Shown piece after piece: positions 26,077-38,721 of a stretch of DNA of 64,000 nt. The notes beneath the pieces are model-generated. The model saw nothing but the letters and a program-made list of their open reading frames with translations, was not told the origin of the DNA and did no database searches. A program made the position numbers and the translations under genes. The stretch covers positions 54,192 through 118,191 of the forward strand of contig JAJEIO010000051.1 in NCBI GenBank assembly GCA_022827835.1, in the 5' to 3' direction. The stretch is from Candidatus Latescibacterota bacterium. Lineage in GTDB: Bacteria > Latescibacterota > UBA2968 > UBA8231. Every line of letters starts with the position of its first letter. Within the stretch, counting starts at the first letter, position 1.

Positions 26077-26811
26077 CTAATCACCTTCACATTCGAGATG
26101 ATTTCTCAATACATTCTTGACGTAGGCCGGCGTTTCTTCTCCAACTTTTTCTGCGGTCTCTTTCAATTGGTCATACTCGGCTACTTCCTCACCTACCCAA
26201 AGAATATCCAGTCTGCGCATCTCTCGCATCGCTACATGGCTATAGGATTCTGGAAATGCCCAATAGCATGACCGGCAATTGCTGACTTCTTTCAATTTCC
26301 AATTTTCGCAATTCTCGCAGCTCCATGACTTCGCCCGATTTGCAGATGGACATATCAGCATGTACGCATCAGAATCCTCCGACAAATCTATATTGTCCCC
26401 AGCGATTTCGAATGGAATTCTGTGGTCGATTTGCAGTTCGCGCTCAGGGAACGGTGCAAGATATATATTGCAACGAGCACCATGTTCTTCTATTAGCGTA
26501 TTTTTTAGAGTAGAAGAGAACGCCGTTCTCCCTGATAACTGCGCAGCGCGAACATCTGATGGATTGCCAAACTTGTACGCGCCGATTCTCCTTCCATCAG
26601 AGCCGATCACGTAAAAGGTCTCTATCGGAATTCCCTGCTCTCGAACGTCTCTAATCGCTCGTGGCGGATGGTTGTAGCCATAAACATCCTTAAGTTCCTC
26701 TGTTGTGATTTGTCCATGTTCAAGAATGTGTTCAATGACCGTTTTAGGTCTTTTCGCCTGCACGCTCTTCAGCAGTTCTAAAAACTCTGGAGGATAGTTC
26801 TTTTTGCTCAT
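26077..26811 (-). CDS. HNH restriction endonuclease, type II R-M
   Basis: A 244-residue predicted nuclease. The N-terminal half looks like a winged helix (ITTEELKDVYGYNHPPRAIRDV). The C-terminal half is an HNH domain with the key histidine in LQIDHRIPFEI, the second metal-site element in CPSANRAKSW, and two CxxC pairs (CENC, CRSC) for a structural zinc. It overlaps the adenine methyltransferase by 4 bases (ATGA), the usual tight coupling of a restriction pair. Composition is clearly AT-richer than its flanks, suggesting transfer. Recognition site unknown; a NlaIII/FokI-like lineage is only a guess from the D12 partner. Confidence 0.82.
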   Translation of the reverse strand: MSKKNYPPEFLELLKSVQAKRPKTVIEHILEHGQITTEELKDVYGYNHPPRAIRDVREQGIPIETFYVIGSDGRRIGAYKFGNPSDVRAAQLSGRTAFSSTLKNTLIEEHGARCNIYLAPFPERELQIDHRIPFEIAGDNIDLSEDSDAYMLICPSANRAKSWSCENCENWKLKEVSNCRSCYWAFPESYSHVAMREMRRLDILWVGEEVAEYDQLKETAEKVGEETPAYVKNVLRNHLECEGD

Positions 26812-27725
26812 TCCAAAGCGAGCTCCTGCTGAATTTGCGGTATTTTATCATGTCTCTGACCATCTTTCAAGCGCTCCACTAAAGCGGGCGAAATATACAG
26901 AGATTCGACAGTCTCGCTCTTGTCGCCCAAGAGCGTGGCTTGGCTTGAGCGTCCGGCACTAATGTGCAAATGAGTGAGGGAAAGCGAACGGGGGAGTGGC
27001 TTGCCGTGACTTTTTTCGCCGGTTTTCCCGTCGTAGCTCGCCATATACGAAAGCCCTCGGTCATTCAGGATTTCGAGCGCGTCTGCAAACTCAGCATAGC
27101 TCAGCCCACTACAATACCTGTGATCTCTCGTAAAGGAAGTGCCTTGATATGGCGGGTCCATGTAAATGAGATCCTCTTTCGCGGCCTCCGCGACCACCTT
27201 GCGGAAATCTACTGCGGAAAGCGTAGTTCTTCCGGCAAGCAGCGCGTGAACACCGAGTATCTGGCGCTGCATAAGTATGGGACGCATGCCCGACCGCCGA
27301 TTGTCCGCGCTTTGATTGAACAGGCCCTCGGCACTGTACCGCACCGAACCTTTTACTATGCGTGCCAGCAGATAAAGCAAATGATGAGGCCGGTGTTCGG
27401 CATTGAATTTGTCGCGGATGCCGAGGAAGAAGGCCCTTTTGTCCAAGTGCTGTTCCGTCCACAGCCGCTCGTAGTTTTTGCTCAACTCATTTGGCCGCTG
27501 CAAAATTTCTTCCCACAGCGCCATCAAAGGTTCGTTCAAATCATTGAGCCAAAATCGCTTTGCGAGCCCGTGCGCGGCAGCAGCAAGAGAAATGGCACCA
27601 GACCCGCAAAAAGGCTCGATAAGGCAATCGACATCGCGCGGAAAATGCGCAAGGATATGCCGTGCAATACCGCGCTTACTACCCTGATAGGGGAATGGAT
27701 GAGGAATTGCCATGTGCTGTAACAT
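26808..27725 (-). CDS. D12-class adenine-N6 DNA methyltransferase
   Basis: Protects host DNA by methylating adenine in the recognition site of its partner nuclease. About 305 residues. The N-terminal PFPYQGSKRGIARHI and SAM-binding EPFCGSGAIS mark the D12 (Dam/M.FokI-like) class. The catalytic tetrad is DPPY in YMDPPYQGTSF. Start: the track begins 45 codons earlier inside the preceding gene, but a GGAGGGGG site sits ideally before the ATG at 27725, so that start is chosen. It is followed by the HNH nuclease. The order M then R would favour methylation before cutting. Confidence 0.9.
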   Translation of the reverse strand: MLQHMAIPHPFPYQGSKRGIARHILAHFPRDVDCLIEPFCGSGAISLAAAAHGLAKRFWLNDLNEPLMALWEEILQRPNELSKNYERLWTEQHLDKRAFFLGIRDKFNAEHRPHHLLYLLARIVKGSVRYSAEGLFNQSADNRRSGMRPILMQRQILGVHALLAGRTTLSAVDFRKVVAEAAKEDLIYMDPPYQGTSFTRDHRYCSGLSYAEFADALEILNDRGLSYMASYDGKTGEKSHGKPLPRSLSLTHLHISAGRSSQATLLGDKSETVESLYISPALVERLKDGQRHDKIPQIQQELALE

Positions 27726-27820
27726 CTCTACCCCCTCCGCATCACAACAATGCGGTTTGAACTGGTTCCGTGCTTGTTGGTTGCACTTGTCGCAATGTGC
27801 GTCCCCAACAATCTGCGTTT

Positions 27821-30800
27821 CTACAAATACCCAAACAACACCGTAAAATAAGACTTCCATCGCCCCTTATCTGGCACCTCATCAATCCCATAAGCCACAT
27901 CCACCTGCACTCGCGTCGGTATGCTGTAATATGAAATCAAATCAAAACGCAGTTGTCCTCCTACATCCCGCAGCGGACCGTCGCGTCCATACCGTTCGTT
28001 CCACTCGCCTATATTTCGGTCCCAAGCCTTGCCCATGCTACCGTACACCGCGCCATAGACTTTGTCGAAATACAACTGCGCAACGCGCTTGCCCATATTC
28101 GGCAGTAGGGGAAAGCGCAGCGTCGCCGTGCCCATCAGGGCCTTGCGCCCCTCAATGCTGTAAAACGTATAGCCCTTCATAAAGTTGAGACCGCCGAGGC
28201 GATAGTCAAAGAAACCGCCGACCCGCGACGTGTCAGTGACCGCGTCGCTGTCGATCCAGCCACCGTATAGCCGCAAGCCCAAGCGACTATTGCCGGGCAT
28301 ACTCATGTGCTCTCGCCAATCGACGGTAAACTGATTGTAGAACAGCTTGATATAGTTCTCGTCGATAAAAGATGCCTGCTCGTTAAAGCCGTCGATGAAA
28401 TAGTTGAACATCCGGTCGTAGCGCGCGTATAACTGGCGGCCCACAGGGCTTATATCGCGGTCCCGCCGCCGCGCAATCATCTCCAGCCGATAGGTCAGCC
28501 CCAGCCCAAAGCCATTGAGATAGGTATAGCCAAAGGGCCGCTGGGCAGTGCGCTCAAATCCGACCTGTCCGTCGCCTTTGCAGACGAGACAGTCGCTCTC
28601 GACGCTGGCGTCGTAGCGGTCGTACGTGGCCGAGGCCGTCAACTCCCCATGGCGACCCAATTTGCCGCGCACCCCCACGCTGAACTGGCTCAAGCTGTAG
28701 TTGACGGCGTTGACAATGATCGTCCGCGCCTCCGAGCTATCGCCGCGAGCCGAATGTCGGCGCTGGTTGAATAGCTGTAAAAAGAAAGTGGGACGGAATC
28801 CCTTAAACTCGTATATGGCGAACAAATCGCGGTCGGCATTGGTCGGCGCGATGGCACCCCCGGCGAATACGCTCTGGCGATTAAGCACATCGCCAGCACT
28901 GAGGTATGCACCTGCCTTGAAATGCCCCTCGTCAATGAATATCCTCGGCAGGATCCCGGTCTTGAGAAAGTCAATGCCATACGCTTGCGGTGCGCTCGGC
29001 AACGCGGCCACGGGCGTGCCGTCCCAATCCAGTGGCACGTCTTGGGAAAACCACGCCTCTTCAGCCGCCACCGGCGTCCCCTCGTCGCGCAACCGGCGAA
29101 TCTCAAAGCCAGCCGCAGTATAAGCCGCAAAGACGACCTCGCCGTCCGCGCCGACCGATGGGCTAAACGCGCCGCCAACAGTATTAGTTATCTGCCGCAG
29201 CGCACGCGTCTCTAAGTTCAGAGCATAGATATTGAAAATGCCGCCGAAATCCGATGCAAACACGATCTCCACGCCGTCCGCACTCCACGCTGGGTCGCGG
29301 TCCGTACCCGGCGTGGCAATAGCAAGGTCAAATGCTCCTTCGGCGAGCAAATCTCCCTCCGCGTCCAATCCCACTACGGCGATGTCGCGCTGCCCCTCGC
29401 GCGCGATCGCAAACGCCAGTTTGCGGCCATCGGGCGAAAAACGCGGCGTGTAGAGCTGGGTGCCGTCCGCGAAATGAGTTAGATAGCGCACCCCCGTGCC
29501 GTCGGCCCGCATTATCGCCAAGTTGTTATTGGTGTCCTTATTCTGCACGAAGACGATCCACTCGCCATCGGGCGAATAGGTCGGATACAGCGCCCGCATC
29601 CCCCGCGTCAGCCGCTTGACACTCGGCGTCTCCGGTGCCGTGCCGCTGACCATAGCCGGCACCATCCACAGCATATTGCGCCAAAAACTAGGACCGTCGG
29701 CCGCAGAATCCCACTCGTAAATATCCGCCTGCCGCGACCCGTATTTGTCCGCCCGGTCAATGCGCGAAAAGAGCAGCTTGCGCCCGTCCGGCGACCAATC
29801 CACAGTCGAAGCCGCCGCCGGAAAGGCTGCCACTTCCTCCTCGCCGGTAGCGAGGTCGCGCACGATCAAGCCGTGTGGGTAGTGGTGCCGCTTGCGCGTT
29901 GACAGGTACGCCAATTGCTCGCCATTGGGTGCCAGCCGTGGCCGCAGATTGGAAAAGCCAACATCCACGATCCGCTCGCCCTCGCGCAGTGGCCCCAACG
30001 CCGCCACCTGCGCTCGATAGCCCTGCCGCATGGACGCGATCCACTCGCCGTACAGCTCGTCCGCGCTCTTGCCCAAGACCTTTTTGCACGCCCCGTCAAT
30101 AGCGAGGGTGTGCCACTGCGACGCGGCCCGATACAGTGCGGCGACTTTTTCTTCGCCGTACGTCTCGGCAATGTAGCGCACCAAGCCAAAGCCGTGATCG
30201 TACACGTATTCGTTGCCAAAGCCCTGCTTGCCAAAGACGCCCATCTGCTCAAAGGATAGCTGCTCGTCCGCCAGCACCAACGAGCGGAGCACCATGTCGC
30301 GATTGGCATCCCAGCGGTCGTGGCCCGTAGTCGCAGTCCCATACTGGGCCGCGCCCTCAGCCAGCCACATCGGCATTACCGTACCCATCACCGGATAGGA
30401 GGCGATGACATCTGGGTAGCCGATGAGAATGTCAGGCCGATTTTTCTCCCGCTGGTAGCCAAAGTACTGCAAGTAGAGCGCAGGGACGCGCTGCACGCCT
30501 TTGCGCGCTGCCCCCAGCGAAATGATGTGGGCAAATTCGTGGGTAATTACATTGCGCAGCCAGTCCGAACTGCCGCGCAAGTCGAAGTCGTGGTCCAGCG
30601 ACGTAGCCCAAATTTCAATGGTGTCTTGATAAAAAAAAGCCGCGCCATTGGCGTAATCGTCGTGGTCCTTGAGCACGATCCGCACGCGCCCGTCAGGCGC
30701 GTACCCATACAGCTCGGTAAGGGGGGCGTACGCCGCTTCGGCAATGCGCGCCGCCCGTGCCGCCGCCCCTTCCAACCCCTCGTGGTAGAAAATGCGGAAG

Positions 30801-30978: not shown

Positions 30979-31012
30979 CAATTCCTAATTCTCAATTCCT
31001 AATTCCCAATTC
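30979..31012. repeat. 14-base tandem repeat (2.4 copies)
   Basis: CAATTCCTAATTCT, then CAATTCCTAATTCC, then CAATTC. The AT-rich minisatellite fills the gap after the M6-like gene and touches its stop codon. Confidence 0.8.
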
Positions 31013-33740
31013 ACTGACTCACCGCCATTTTAACCACGGCTTCTCCGCGCCGTCCATCGTCGCCGTGCGCGATCAATCGGCATAGATACAGGCCGCTCGC
31101 ATAATCTGTTACCGACCAAGTAATCTCGCGCTCACCGGCATCCAAACCGTCGCTGCGGAGCTTGCCAACGCGCCCGCCCAACGCATCGAACACCTCCACT
31201 TCGATGCGCCCTGCCGCGCTCAGCGCAAAGCGCAAATGTGCTTCTTCATCCGGGCCGACTGGATTGGGATAGCAATAGACTCGGCCCAGCAAGGGCACCT
31301 CGGGCCTTACAACGGGCCGACCAGCCACCAGCGCGGTCCGCGATCCAGCCGCATCGGCACCGGCCTGCGGCCAATGGGCCGGTCCTCCGGTGTACTGCGC
31401 CGCCACCCGCTGCAAATCCCACGCATACACAGCCGTGCTATCCAAGGCCGCTAGCCCCAAGCGGCCATCACCTTCTAAGTCTAATACTACCGGCGACCCC
31501 GTCGGGGGAGCGGCCATCAGCAGAGGAAAGCCCGGCAAGAGCCGTCCATCGTCATCTAGGCCAAAAATTCCGCTGTGGCCAGCGACGAATATCTCCTGCT
31601 TGCCGTCGGCATCCACGTCGCAAAGCACCGGCTCAAAGACCAGATCGCCGACCTCGGCAAAGCGCGGCAAGGCCGTAGGAAAGTCGGCTTGGCCTAATCC
31701 GTCGGCCCGCAGGGCGTGTATCGCGCCACCGCGCGCAAGCAAAATCACCTCCAACAAGCCATCGCCGTCCAAATCGCCCAAGACCGGCGGCACGGCGAGC
31801 GAGTCGCTCAACTCGACGACCTGTGCTCCGATTTCAACCTGTCCGTCAACCGCGGCAAAGATCCACTCGACTTGGCCGTCGCCATCCAAATCGCCTGCAG
31901 CCAAGGGCATCATCGGCGACCTTTGATCCTTTAACTCGCCACTTATGGCATCTACTACGTAGATCTGTTCCGCTCCGACAAGCAGCAACTCGGCCTCCGC
32001 GCCGGCGCTGAAACGCGCGTCCAACGGCACCTCGTCCAGCGCCAGCCGCCATAGCGGTTGGTCGGCCCCAACGTCCCACGCGCTAACCTCTGCGTCGCGC
32101 CGCAGAAAAACCTCGGGCCGGCCATCGCCATCGCCGTCTCCAGCCGCCAGCAACCGCGCTTCTGGTACTCGCCATGCCGCTACGCCATCGCCGGTCGCAT
32201 AGCCGACGCCACCTCCGGCCTCAAAGAGCAACTCTTCTATTCCGTCGCCGTTCAAATCCGCGGCTTGCAGCCGACCATCGCCCGGCAAATCCCGCGGCCA
32301 GTCCGGGCGCGCACGCCCAAAGCGTATAGCCACCTGCATGGTATCGCCGAGCGCAGAAAGCACTTCGATCTCAATGCCGGTCTCCCACTCCCGATTGCTG
32401 CGCGAATCGGGTCGCGTCGCCGGGCCGAACATCGTTTGTCCGCCGATAAAGAAGGGGTCGTCGGGCCATCCATCGACTTGCAACTCCCACGCACGGCGCG
32501 GATCGCCAATGTCGCGATACCCGTCGGCTTCCTCCAAGGCAATCCCCTTCCAATGGAGCTGATTGTTCGCGGCATTAGGATCCGCAGCACGCGCCATCAC
32601 GCCCTCATCTACGTGCCATATCAGCACTCCCGACCCCGGGACAAAGGCGTCGTACTCCTCCATCGCCACCCACACGCTCTCTTCTATGGTGGCCTGATCG
32701 GGGTCAATCCACACCTTATCTTCGTCTTCGTCCTCTACAACACCGCGCTGCCCGCGCTGTTGCCTATTCTCCAGCAAGAAGTATTCGCGTGCGTCAATGG
32801 GTATGCGCACAGCCTTGGGGAGATCGCCGTTGCGATCGGTCGCCAGCAGCGAGAGTACGGTGTCGCGCCGCACCACCACCGGCTCGACCCATCCCAACTG
32901 CATCTTGCTCCAAGCCATGGGATGCGGCGGCGCAAATCCAGTCACCCACGCGAGGCTGTCGGCCCGCACGTAGCCTGAAACGTTGGCCCCCACGTCCATC
33001 AAGCTCCAGCCTCCTAAGGCCGGCAGCCCGTTGGCGAAATTGGACAACCCGGGCAGCCCCAACTGGTGGCCAAAGAATTTGGCCAGCAAGCCATTGAGGC
33101 CAGCCCGACCGTTGAGGCTGGGCGACTCTGGCAGGATCCACGCCTGCTCGATCTCCACGCCACCCACGGTCAGCGGGCCGCCGTTAAAGCGCGCAAAATC
33201 GCTCTCGGCGAGGAAGACTGAGCGAATGTCGTTCAGTGCGCCGGTCTCGTAGCCGACCCCGGAGTGGAATACGAGGAAACTGTTGAATTCGTCCAAGCGC
33301 GGGCCGTCGGGATCGGCCAGCGCAGCGTGCAGGGCATCGCGTACCAACTCGATCCACTTCGCGCCGATCTCCTCGGTCGTGCGTCCGTTGCCGTAGTGGA
33401 GCATAGATTGGGGAAGGGTGTACGCCTGCTGTGCGACGCGGGGAAATACCTCGGCGGAAATCGCCACCCGACCTGCGGAAACGACCTCGTAATAGCGCGC
33501 CAACGCGGTCAAATGCCGCTCGAAATAAGCGCGGTCGTGCGGCGGCAGGTCGTAGGGCAGCGCGTAATCCTCCGCCGCTTGCTCTGCCGAGCGCAGATCA
33601 AACGCGCCGATGCCAGTGGTCGTCAATTCGTCGGGATTTTCGCGCGGAAAATCCACGCGCAAGGCCAAGATTCGCCACTCGGCGTCGGCCTCGGTAGTCG
33701 CGAACAACAGCAGTGAGCAGCAGAAGCCTAAGAGGAGCAA
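31011..33740 (-). CDS. M6-like pseudopeptidase with FG-GAP repeats and FlgD-like C-terminus
   Basis: A 909-residue exported protein. The N-terminal 450 residues follow the M6 (immune-inhibitor-A-like) layout, but the zinc motif is lost: where HExxHxLGLPxLxD is expected the sequence is KFFGHQLGLPGLSN (221 onward), so the first His and Glu are Lys and Phe. Residues about 490-790 hold FG-GAP/VCBS-type Asp-rich repeats (LNGDGIEELLFE, DGDGRPEVFLR, LDGDGLLEVILL). The C-terminus is a FlgD-like sorting-type domain (YCYPNPVGPDEEAHLRF... SGLYLCRLIA). Start TTG is the only nearby option and the signal peptide lacks a clear basic n-region, so the start is uncertain. Probably adhesive or structural, not proteolytic. 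Confidence 0.8.
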   Translation of the reverse strand: MLLLGFCCSLLLFATTEADAEWRILALRVDFPRENPDELTTTGIGAFDLRSAEQAAEDYALPYDLPPHDRAYFERHLTALARYYEVVSAGRVAISAEVFPRVAQQAYTLPQSMLHYGNGRTTEEIGAKWIELVRDALHAALADPDGPRLDEFNSFLVFHSGVGYETGALNDIRSVFLAESDFARFNGGPLTVGGVEIEQAWILPESPSLNGRAGLNGLLAKFFGHQLGLPGLSNFANGLPALGGWSLMDVGANVSGYVRADSLAWVTGFAPPHPMAWSKMQLGWVEPVVVRRDTVLSLLATDRNGDLPKAVRIPIDAREYFLLENRQQRGQRGVVEDEDEDKVWIDPDQATIEESVWVAMEEYDAFVPGSGVLIWHVDEGVMARAADPNAANNQLHWKGIALEEADGYRDIGDPRRAWELQVDGWPDDPFFIGGQTMFGPATRPDSRSNREWETGIEIEVLSALGDTMQVAIRFGRARPDWPRDLPGDGRLQAADLNGDGIEELLFEAGGGVGYATGDGVAAWRVPEARLLAAGDGDGDGRPEVFLRRDAEVSAWDVGADQPLWRLALDEVPLDARFSAGAEAELLLVGAEQIYVVDAISGELKDQRSPMMPLAAGDLDGDGQVEWIFAAVDGQVEIGAQVVELSDSLAVPPVLGDLDGDGLLEVILLARGGAIHALRADGLGQADFPTALPRFAEVGDLVFEPVLCDVDADGKQEIFVAGHSGIFGLDDDGRLLPGFPLLMAAPPTGSPVVLDLEGDGRLGLAALDSTAVYAWDLQRVAAQYTGGPAHWPQAGADAAGSRTALVAGRPVVRPEVPLLGRVYCYPNPVGPDEEAHLRFALSAAGRIEVEVFDALGGRVGKLRSDGLDAGEREITWSVTDYASGLYLCRLIAHGDDGRRGEAVVKMAVSQ

Positions 33741-33828: not shown

Positions 33829-34881
33829 TCAGAAAATGATGTTCAGCGAAATGGGCGTATTGTCTCCCACTACTGTCTCTTCACTGCCGATTATATACGC
33901 CACGTCAAACTGGAAGCGATTGTATTTTAGCCCAACACCAAAGGTCTTGGTACTCACCTCGCCGTCGGTGTCCTGAGAAAGGCCCGCCCGCAACGCGATA
34001 AACGCCTCACCTTCGCGCGCGGAGAGTCCGTATTGGTATTCGCCGCCCACATGCAGATCCATCTCCTTGAACTCGTTGCTCATGCCCTCGTCGGCCCATG
34101 CCTTGGCCAAGTTGCTAATAAAAGACCCATCAGCAATCAGCGGTTTGTACAGGTCAAAGGAGAGCATCAGGTCGTTGTATTGGGTATCCATCACGTCGTA
34201 GGCTACTCCGACGACGATATGTTGGGGCAGCGGATCGGCCTGATCGGCATCAATATAGGCGATCTTAGGGCCTAGGTTGCGCAGGGCCGCGCCAAAGCTG
34301 AGACTGGGAACGGGTTTCCATAAAAAACCTAAATCTGCGGCAAAGCTGTTGCCTACACCTCGGCCCCGTTCAATGCCGGCCCCCGCATCAGCCAAGTTGC
34401 TGCGGATGAACTTCAGGCCGATGCCAGCGGACGTATTATCGCCGATACGTGCCCCGTAGGCCGCAGATATGGCCACGTCATAGCTGCGGAAGGTGCCTTG
34501 TTGGTTGCCGCGCTCGTCCGTGCGGATCTGCTCGCCCAAGTTTAGCAGCGCGACGTTGAAGCCAAAGTTGCCCCACCCCTCCACGGGCTGGGAATAGGCC
34601 AGAAACTCGTAGGACAAGTCGTCGGCCAGCTTCGGCAGCCACGCAGTGTGCGAGAAGTGGAGCTTTTTCTTGCTCTGCCCGACCAGCGCGGCTGGGTTGA
34701 AGTAGCTCGCCGTGGCGTCATCGGCCACCGCCACGTACGATTCGCCCATGGCAATGGCGCGGGAACCCGGCTCGATCAACAACAGCAGCGGAGCACTGCG
34801 GCTCTCGGGCGTGGCCCAGACCCCATCGGGCAATGCGCCGACACAAAGGCCAGCCAACAGCAGGGTCGTCAGTTTCCTCAT
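33829..34881 (-). CDS. porV: PorV-family outer-membrane protein
   Basis: In type IX secretion PorV shuttles cargo from the translocon to the PorU sortase at the outer membrane. This 350-residue protein has a signal peptide (MRKLTTLLLAGLCVGALPDG..), then the PorV start EPGSRAIAMGESYVAVADDATASYFNPAALVG, repeated beta strands and a terminal aromatic (ISLNIIF). It lies directly downstream of a PorU-like gene, matching the porU-porV pairing in Bacteroidetes. Its leader is duplicated before the gene at 30910. Family is clear; whether a full type IX apparatus exists cannot be judged from this window. Confidence 0.86.
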   Translation of the reverse strand: MRKLTTLLLAGLCVGALPDGVWATPESRSAPLLLLIEPGSRAIAMGESYVAVADDATASYFNPAALVGQSKKKLHFSHTAWLPKLADDLSYEFLAYSQPVEGWGNFGFNVALLNLGEQIRTDERGNQQGTFRSYDVAISAAYGARIGDNTSAGIGLKFIRSNLADAGAGIERGRGVGNSFAADLGFLWKPVPSLSFGAALRNLGPKIAYIDADQADPLPQHIVVGVAYDVMDTQYNDLMLSFDLYKPLIADGSFISNLAKAWADEGMSNEFKEMDLHVGGEYQYGLSAREGEAFIALRAGLSQDTDGEVSTKTFGVGLKYNRFQFDVAYIIGSEETVVGDNTPISLNIIF

Positions 34882-34995: not shown

Positions 34996-37900
34996 TCACT
35001 TGGCGACCTGCAAGACAGCGCGGCGCGCGACCGCAGCACCGCTTTCCCGCGCGGCTTCTATTCGATAAATATACGCACCGTTGGCCAAACCCGTCGGCGG
35101 CGTCCAAGGCACTTGGTTGTAGCCAGCGCGCGTCTGCCCGTCTAGCCGCTCTATCAGCCGCCCGGCCAGCGAAAAGACCTCTATCTGCACCGCGCGCATC
35201 TCATCTGCTAGCTCATATGTGAAGTAGCCGCTATCGCGCATGGGATTCGGGTAAAATAGGACATTGGCAAGGCTCGTATCGCCTTCGTCGTCTCCAACCG
35301 TGATGACCACGGTCTCACGCGACGAATTGTTGAAGTTGTCCCAAGCCTTCAGGCGAATTTCGTGTTTGCCGATTTCCAATTCGGGCAGAGGAAATTCGAT
35401 CACGCCCTGCCGATAATCCCCGCCCTGCACGCTGTACAGCTCCGTCAAGGTGAACAACTCGCCGTTGATGGCCAGCTCGATTTCGTGCCCGGTCTCTCCA
35501 GTGATGTTGATGCCGCTGGGATCCGCAATCGAGGCCAACAACACCGTCTGCCGCGGAATCGTGCTGCCTTTGGCTCCCTCGAAGCGCAGGGAAATTTCCG
35601 GCCCTTCCACATCCGCTTCCACCCCTTCAGCCGTGCCCGCTAGCACCAGTCCATCCACCGCGCCAAAGGCCGCCGGGCGATCATCGCTCCAGACGTAGGC
35701 GCTGATACGGCCGTTTTGTCCGCCATAAGTAATATCTTTAGGAACTCGAAACGCAGCGCGGAAACGGCCCTCGGCTACTGGAAAGCGGCCGCGAAACATG
35801 GGGGCACCAGTCTGCTGATAAGTATAGCCCTCCAAGTCGCTTTCTTCACTCGAATCAAAGGCCTGCAACCACACTTGGCCCGCATAGGCGGTGGCCGGCG
35901 CACCCGCGGCGTCGAGGACTTGGCCGACGATGGCTACTTCGCCGAGGGCGCGGAGCGAATCGGCCACATCGATCTGCACCTGAAAGCGCGGCATGGCCAA
36001 GCGCGTCGCCGGGTCGCCGAAGAGCGAGTAGCGCTGAATATTGCGGAATGTACTGTAGGCATTGGCAGCGTTGGGGCTATACCGCGGCAGCAGCACTAGC
36101 TTGGCTTCGAAAAGGGCTAGCCCAATCGGCACGTGCTCCCGTCCGGTGTGGTACATCTGCCAGTAGAACTGATTGGCCAACTGGACATTGGTGCCGTGCC
36201 ACCCCACCCGGGTCGCGCAGATCATGCCGATCACGCCCCCGTCTTCCTTTTTCAGGAGCGCTTCGGGCATGGAGAGGCGCACTGGATCGTCGAACACTCC
36301 AACTTGACTCGCAGCCGTGTAGAACAAGGGCAGGCGACTGCCGTTTTTGAGTTTGTCCAAATCGCGGGCAAGCAAGAACATACTCTCGTGAGCCAGCACG
36401 TTAAGGCTGCCGTGCCCCAAATAAGTCACAGTGAGTGCGCCCTCGTTGAAGAGCCGAATAAACTCGTCGCGGGCCCGCGGTTTCTCCCGTCCCTCTAAGG
36501 GGAATTGGGCGATGTAGAGTTTGATCAAGTCCAGCGAATTGGGCAGGATGTTACGGGCCATGTATTCACTATCGTTGATGAAGAACGACTCGACTTTACC
36601 CGGCTCGTCTCGATTGAGCAAGTCGTCCGAGACTAGTGCCTGTCGGCTCTGCCAAGGCCCCAATTCGGGCGCGCGGTCGTAAGCGATGATTTTATCGACG
36701 ACCACATCGGCCTCGGCCGCAGTCTGCACCGTCAGCCGCCCAACGGCCATGTCGGGGTACAAATCGTCGCCCACCACGCGCGTGTACCACTCGTCGTACG
36801 TACTGTCGCCGTCTTGGAACGGCGGGATCCAATTGCCCTGACTGAGGGCTGAGTTGTTTTTGTAATCGTACGAGCCATCGCCAATCAAGGCCACAAATAC
36901 CGGCGCGGGATCCCAGTGCTCGGCCGCGTAGGCGAGAAAATTGCGGATCGCCGCCGGGTCTAAAAGGCCGCCGGAAAATTCGTCGTAGATGTCTTGGACG
37001 TCGATGGCCATGGTCCGCAGGGGCGGCCCGAAGCGGTCGTCTTCAGCCCGCCATTGTGCCAAGCGTTCGGCCGCAGCGCGAAAATCGCGGTGGTAAATCG
37101 CCACCCAATCGGCCCCCCAGCTCCTAGTCGTCAAGTCGCCGAGCCAGTCGAGTTCGATGCGCACCGGGCGCTTCCAAGTCGCCGGGCCGCCCACTGCGTA
37201 ATGACGCGGTACATCCCCGGGCCGATCCTGAAAAATTACCGTCCCGGCCTGCGCGTCGTACGCGAAGTCCACGACCTCGGCCAAACCCGCAGACACCTCA
37301 AAGACGCGCGGCTGCTCGTCGGCAAAACCCGCGAGGCGGAATTGCGTGATGCCCGTCAGCGGATAACTGAAGAACAGTTCGCCGCGCTCGGCGACAAAGC
37401 CCCGGCTGTACTCCACCTCGTACCAGTCGAAGCGAGACGGATTGCCGGAGTGAAAGATCCCCAAGTGGTTCAGACCTTCCTGCGCTCCTTGTGTCGCCCA
37501 CAGCGTATCGGATGTAACCGGCATCTGGCCCGATTCCTCTGGAATCGCAAAAGCCGCTGTTCCGATAGTCTGTTCGTTCCAGCGCACCGAAAAACGCGGC
37601 TGTGTCCCAGGCACCCCGATAAAGCCCAAACGCACAGCCACCGGCTCGGAGGCGGCCTGTCGCACCACTACCGGAAAATTGCGCGCATTGCCGCGAAAAT
37701 CCTCCCAGTACCAAGTGTAGCCGGACTTGATGCTATAAAGCTGGGTGAGAATGAACTGCTCGGCTTCCTCGTGGATTCGCTCCCGATAACTCGTGGGCTG
37801 CTGCGGATCGGATGCGGTTAAGGCACCGCTCCTCTGCTCGACCCGCTGCCCCTCGCCTCCACCGCCGAAACCCAGCCAGTATGCGTTTTCGCGCGTGTAG

Positions 37901-38721
37901 AGATTGTGCCGATACTGAAACGAGCGGCTGGCCGGAACGTATTCCCAGCGGCTGACCGGCTCAGCCCAAAACAAGACGAAGTCGTCCGCGTCCAAGCGGC
38001 CATCGCCCCCGTCTTCTACGACCAAGCCCTCTTCCCGCAGGGCTTGGGGCGGGTTTATCTCGTCGATGGGCAAGGCGTTGCCACCGCCGTAAAACAGGCG
38101 CAAACTCGCTGGATCAACATCGCCGATTGCCACCCCAGCGGCCTCTAAGTCGGCTCCCGATATCCTGTAGATCCCCTCTTCCGCAACGATAATCCGCAGC
38201 CAAGTCCCTTCCTGCAACGCGGCTTTGCGCGCTGGCCGCCGCTTGAGTGGCAATCGCCAGTTCTTGGCTTGCTCGGGATTGACGAGCAGCCCTCGGTAGA
38301 ATGCTTCACCCCAAGGATCGGCAACGCGAGAGCCGCTGCTACCGATCACATGCAAATCAACGACGATGCGATCATACAGAGTCCGCGTTCCATCCGCTTC
38401 GACGCGCGGGGCAAATGCCACAGGAACGACGCGCTGGCGACGCACAAAACCGCTTTCGCCGAGAAATACCGGACCGGGCGTGGGCGCGTCGTCTTCAGCG
38501 GCGCGATCCGTCCGCGCCACGCGGGCTTCGACCAACTCCAAGCGAACCTGTCCGTCGGTCGGGACGCCGACTAAGGCACCACGCCCCTGCTCCAATTCTC
38601 GGCCCTCGGGCAGCCAAACCAACCGCAGGCGCTGTGGCGTCTGTTCGCTTACGCGCAATTCCGCCATGGCCGCACTCCCGCAAAAAAGCGCGAGCACCCA
38701 AAAACAGCATTTGAATCTCAT
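34996..38721 (-). CDS. PorU-like C25 (gingipain-family) protein, catalytic Cys replaced
   Basis: A 1241-residue exported protein with PorU layout: signal peptide (MRFKCCFWVLALFCGSAAMA), an N-terminal prodomain-like region, PorU-type strands (LFYGGGNALPIDE), then a C25 peptidase domain (about 560-900). The catalytic histidine is present in YLGHGSLN (H770). Where gingipains and PorU have the nucleophile in a CxxGxF context, this protein reads TAASQVGVFDDP: codon 805 is AGT (Ser), not Cys. The C-terminal 90 residues are a FlgD-like domain (FYPNPMRDSGYF... NGAYIYRIEA). PorU normally removes sorting domains and anchors cargo; this one may be inactive or use serine. Confidence 0.85.
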   Translation of the reverse strand: MRFKCCFWVLALFCGSAAMAELRVSEQTPQRLRLVWLPEGRELEQGRGALVGVPTDGQVRLELVEARVARTDRAAEDDAPTPGPVFLGESGFVRRQRVVPVAFAPRVEADGTRTLYDRIVVDLHVIGSSGSRVADPWGEAFYRGLLVNPEQAKNWRLPLKRRPARKAALQEGTWLRIIVAEEGIYRISGADLEAAGVAIGDVDPASLRLFYGGGNALPIDEINPPQALREEGLVVEDGGDGRLDADDFVLFWAEPVSRWEYVPASRSFQYRHNLYTRENAYWLGFGGGGEGQRVEQRSGALTASDPQQPTSYRERIHEEAEQFILTQLYSIKSGYTWYWEDFRGNARNFPVVVRQAASEPVAVRLGFIGVPGTQPRFSVRWNEQTIGTAAFAIPEESGQMPVTSDTLWATQGAQEGLNHLGIFHSGNPSRFDWYEVEYSRGFVAERGELFFSYPLTGITQFRLAGFADEQPRVFEVSAGLAEVVDFAYDAQAGTVIFQDRPGDVPRHYAVGGPATWKRPVRIELDWLGDLTTRSWGADWVAIYHRDFRAAAERLAQWRAEDDRFGPPLRTMAIDVQDIYDEFSGGLLDPAAIRNFLAYAAEHWDPAPVFVALIGDGSYDYKNNSALSQGNWIPPFQDGDSTYDEWYTRVVGDDLYPDMAVGRLTVQTAAEADVVVDKIIAYDRAPELGPWQSRQALVSDDLLNRDEPGKVESFFINDSEYMARNILPNSLDLIKLYIAQFPLEGREKPRARDEFIRLFNEGALTVTYLGHGSLNVLAHESMFLLARDLDKLKNGSRLPLFYTAASQVGVFDDPVRLSMPEALLKKEDGGVIGMICATRVGWHGTNVQLANQFYWQMYHTGREHVPIGLALFEAKLVLLPRYSPNAANAYSTFRNIQRYSLFGDPATRLAMPRFQVQIDVADSLRALGEVAIVGQVLDAAGAPATAYAGQVWLQAFDSSEESDLEGYTYQQTGAPMFRGRFPVAEGRFRAAFRVPKDITYGGQNGRISAYVWSDDRPAAFGAVDGLVLAGTAEGVEADVEGPEISLRFEGAKGSTIPRQTVLLASIADPSGINITGETGHEIELAINGELFTLTELYSVQGGDYRQGVIEFPLPELEIGKHEIRLKAWDNFNNSSRETVVITVGDDEGDTSLANVLFYPNPMRDSGYFTYELADEMRAVQIEVFSLAGRLIERLDGQTRAGYNQVPWTPPTGLANGAYIYRIEAARESGAAVARRAVLQVAK

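Follow-up and report, generated by a model that had tools for sequence, protein, structure and literature searches.

Judging by a collection of 248 distinct C25 domains, the replacement of the catalytic cysteine by serine in the type IX secretion system (T9SS) sortase PorU is a fixed trait of one Latescibacterota lineage, and not the product of chance, error or a lone mutation, since all 29 PorU domains from the family concerned have a serine at the nucleophile position, and every other readable domain (218/218) has a cysteine there. The PorU studied here, which belongs to this family, is encoded in a window of 64,000 nucleotides (the whole stretch of DNA that was analyzed). Taken together, the comparisons incline us to the view that the serine variant, Ser-PorU, is a working serine-type peptidase/sortase for C-terminal sorting domains (CTDs).

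The porU gene (34996..38721, minus strand) starts with ATG and encodes 1241 amino acids. A preliminary description of this DNA had called the product PorU-like, and profile searches bear this out: residues 169-1227 score 622.7 bits against the PorU equivalog NF033707 (cut-off 420), and Pfam C25 (PF01364) matches with 257 bits, placing the catalytic domain at residues 541-908 (35998..37101, minus strand). Residues 1157-1224 (35050..35253, minus strand) match the T9SS sorting-type domain TIGR04183, with a score (21.8 bits) slightly below the cut-off of 23. The best solved relative in sequence searches is Porphyromonas gingivalis PorU (PG0026, the C25-type C-terminal signal peptidase/sortase of the T9SS, PDB 6za2), which is also the top Foldseek match of an AlphaFold2 model of residues 165-1060 (mean pLDDT 91.5). 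The two proteins have the same full-length architecture and fold, and share the active-site histidine, the PorU-specific arginine, the neighboring porV gene and a C-terminal domain of their own. The model also matches the gingipain RgpB (C25 peptidase, 1cvr), which has the C25 fold and the histidine in common with the window PorU, but is a far weaker match and has a cysteine nucleophile. Assignment to PorU2 (NF052324), another C25-type, T9SS-linked protein with distant similarity to the window PorU, was rejected, as the score of 145.2 bits falls short of the PorU2 cut-off of 450. Because Ser805 occupies the position of the catalytic cysteine, the window protein is, by sequence and locus, a PorU homologue or orthologue, not a proven cysteine sortase. 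In all features tested, the defining thiol apart, it is a PorU, and therefore a variant of PorU rather than a new system.

Ser805 (AGT, 36307..36309, minus strand, the codon being read from 36309 to 36307) lies in the sequence FYTAASQVGVFDDP. In a gap-free alignment it falls on Cys690 of the P. gingivalis enzyme (ITATCDFANYD) and on Cys244 of RgpB, in agreement with the earlier claim of a Cys-to-Ser change one base away from TGT; the His-Cys dyad of family C25 is represented by His-Ser instead. A register shift by one residue was rejected, since the stretch from TA to FDD is equally long in the Ser and Cys classes and contains no gaps. The preliminary description had also considered that another cysteine might align as the nucleophile. 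Such a residue was looked for in 26 distinct Ser-PorU C25 domains less than 97% alike, and no conserved cysteine able to substitute was found among them; Cys835 was rejected as a candidate because its position varies between S, C, A and G across the Ser clade and is mostly Ser, Ala or Gly.

The remainder of the active site is that of a PorU. His770 (CAC, 36412..36414, minus strand), the catalytic histidine of the GHG motif in TYLGHGS, is present as described before, and is invariant in all C25 domains collected. The acidic pair Asp699-Asp700 (36622..36627, minus strand), for which a catalytic role is presumed, is found in 26/26 Ser-PorU domains, and each of the two residues in 71/72 Cys-PorU domains. 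Arg838 (36208..36210, minus strand), about 32 residues past the nucleophile, is the counterpart of Arg722 of P. gingivalis PorU, a PorU-specific residue that has been noted as a sortase-like feature and that the gingipains do not have (PMC4560394). It is present in all 26 Ser-PorU domains, in 69/72 Cys-PorU domains, and in 0/25 members of a separate family of long C25 proteins. Ser805 itself, Ala803-Ala804 and the FDD after the serine are likewise invariant (26/26). Invariant columns are over-represented in the active-site windows (p = 0.002), a value to be taken as a rough guide, since the windows were self-chosen and the sequences are related. Along with the nucleophile, two nearby positions have changed in Ser-PorU and differ from P. 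gingivalis PorU, with Ala804 in place of the Thr/Ser before the nucleophile, and Thr766 in place of the Asn of the NYxGHG motif; these changes could be compensation or decay. A pseudoprotease would be expected to have lost more than one catalytic residue, or to show drift; in Ser-PorU, the nucleophile alone differs.

The 248 distinct C25 domains came from 64 surveyed Latescibacterota genomes and from loci in other phyla, and one of them is truncated before the nucleophile site. Ser-PorU is present in 22 of the 25 genomes of the window's own family; no PorU was found in the other three, all of which are fragmented assemblies. As AGT differs from TGT by a single base, an error in sequencing or assembly would in principle suffice to produce the serine. 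This explanation is refuted by the clade-wide occurrence of the residue, which recurs in 22 genomes from different assemblies, its codon being AGT or AGC wherever it was read, so that its probability is negligible and the serine described before is genuine. In a C25 tree computed without the nucleophile column, the Ser-PorU sequences form a single clade (SH-aLRT 100) with one Cys/Ser change, and the Cys-PorU sequences of other Latescibacterota fall outside it. The clade is diverse, with pairwise identities in the C25 domain down to 53%. Six genomes contain two or three Ser-PorU copies, and the copies (seven loci noted) fall into two subclades with the same active site. The duplicates are old, and both copies are under the same constraint. 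The closest public records are metagenome-assembled genomes named Latescibacterota or Gemmatimonadota, several of which are probably sponge-associated, going by the record names and the literature on sponge Latescibacterota. The Ser motif had no match in viral contigs, and a DNA-motif scan for Ser variants across Bacteroidota carries little weight, as the motif matched in 2/396 genomes.

At the locus, the next genes after porU are porV, an M6-like one and one for a PD40 protein. The PorV-family outer-membrane protein (33829..34881, minus strand), the presumed partner of PorU, scores 64.9 bits against PF19572 (cut-off 27) and 237.9 bits against NF033709 (cut-off 90). The porU-porV order is conserved as far as Bacteroidota, and the M6 gene follows the pair also in other Latescibacterota and in Zixibacteria. 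The M6-like protein (31011..33740, minus strand) reaches 288.9 bits with NF052323, the profile for T9SS-dependent M6-like inactivated metalloproteases, below the cut-off of 600, and in place of HExxH reads KFFGH (codons of KFFGHQLGLPG at 33048-33080). Most M6 proteins of Zixibacteria, by comparison, retain HEFGH. Across the 16 M6-like loci compared, the motif of the window's family also occurs as KFFGN (two loci) and KFFGY (one locus), with drift of the last histidine, and other Latescibacterota have other degenerate forms. Judging by this motif, the M6-like neighbor is a genuine pseudoenzyme whose former catalytic residues are drifting. Both it and Ser-PorU are T9SS-associated protease homologues with an altered catalytic site, but the M6-like protein has lost several catalytic residues and PorU has changed the nucleophile only. 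The neighbor shows how a protease site in this very locus looks once abandoned, and the PorU site is unlike it.

The genomes also retain the setting in which a PorU would operate, as far as genes alone can tell: an adjacent porV, the SprA translocon and CTD cargo. SprA was found in 10/10 genomes tested, and matches to the sorting domain TIGR04183 number 72 in G000, 113 in G004 and 104 in G007. These three genomes and four others (G001-G003 and G010) yielded no C25 protein besides Ser-PorU, and G004 and G007 are single contigs; searches by family and by protein found no Cys-PorU elsewhere in the genome. Since SprA and 72-113 sorting-domain matches are retained, the need for CTD processing presumably persists in the genomes that have Ser-PorU as their only C25 protein.

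Three implications of the serine had been put forward in the preliminary description, namely an inactive scaffold, a serine-based enzyme, or a different route of anchoring. The invariance of the active-site residues leans towards the second, although the scaffold remains a serious contender. We favor a working serine enzyme over a dead scaffold because the histidine, the serine, the PorU arginine and both aspartates are invariant throughout the clade, because the M6-like neighbor drifts whereas the PorU sites do not, and because Ser-PorU is the sole C25 protein in genomes that have kept SprA and sorting-domain cargo. Several considerations count against activity. Exchange of Cys for Ser commonly cripples cysteine proteases. 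Pseudoenzymes can keep remnants of a motif, as the M6-like protein does with its KFFG. In P. gingivalis PorU the catalytic cysteine is essential, as judged by the C690A mutant (PMC5562754, PMC5121618). A dead PorU would dock on PorV and receive or hold CTD cargo, with the CTD either kept or removed by a non-C25 protease, and we regard this as a plausible, if less probable, account. By C25 standards the nucleophile has been lost, and the M6-like pseudoenzyme retained at the locus indicates that this system tolerates dead proteases. In the C690A mutant, moreover, immature cargo remains bound to PorV (PMC5562754), and pseudo-orthocaspases, clan CD-type proteins in which serine has likewise replaced the catalytic cysteine across a lineage, are presumed inactive (PMC6426788). 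However, the pseudo-orthocaspases have also lost their histidine (to Tyr), whereas Ser-PorU has kept it together with all other active-site residues, and has done so over a deep, duplicated clade, unlike the M6-like protein.

The separate long C25 protein (about 1850 amino acids) might alternatively act as the sortase, with Ser-PorU as an accessory paralogue. It has both cysteine and histidine, is present in most other genera of the window's family, and occurs in related families without a PorU above the cut-off. However, it is missing from the seven genomes with Ser-PorU as their only C25 protein, including the two single-contig genomes, has no PorU arginine (0/25) and scores below the cut-offs for PorU and PorU2, making this arrangement improbable.

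If Ser-PorU is indeed a working serine enzyme, it would be the organism's own T9SS sortase/CTD peptidase, and its docking partner at the cell surface would presumably be PorV. Ser805 would replace cysteine as the acylating nucleophile, His770 would serve as the general base, Asp699/Asp700 would give acid support, and Arg838 would be the PorU-type arginine. The C-terminal sorting domain would be cut off exported cargo through an intermediate that is an oxo-ester rather than a thioester, the changes at positions 766 and 804 perhaps compensating for the serine. Compared with a thioester, an oxo-ester intermediate is more inclined to react with water than with amines, and Ser-PorU might therefore release its cargo by hydrolysis more often than couple it to an amine acceptor. 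That it has changed its nucleophile class within the cysteine-based C25 family and still both removes CTDs and transfers the cargo to a surface acceptor is a more doubtful proposition. An active Ser-PorU would be a case in which nature has exchanged Cys for Ser in a sortase-like enzyme, and the role of the thiol in amine transfer versus hydrolysis could be tested by swapping one residue. A dead one would mean that, in at least some genomes, the T9SS of a whole bacterial family does without a working C25 sortase, and it could no longer be assumed that cargo is trimmed and anchored by PorU in every T9SS.

A literature search, mainly of openly accessible papers, found nothing on type IX secretion in Latescibacterota, and a paper on sponge Latescibacterota genomes mentions neither secretion systems nor peptidases. 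A search for GldM (PorM) gave no match in five genomes (G000, G004, G007, G026 and G055) despite the presence of SprA, but no positive control gave a signal either, so that GldM may yet be present; the T9SS motor may differ outside Bacteroidota. The long C25 proteins (about 1600-2000 amino acids, with cysteine and histidine but the PorU arginine in 0/25) were collected from 13 loci of family f1 and 16 loci of families f3 and f4. In f3 and f4, the long protein is the only C25 found, although SprA is present in the two tested; this protein may represent another kind of T9SS sortase or peptidase. Elsewhere in the window, a Dam-like adenine methyltransferase is encoded at 26808-27860 (minus strand), with a TIGR00571 score of 112.9 bits, slightly below the cut-off of 114.85.
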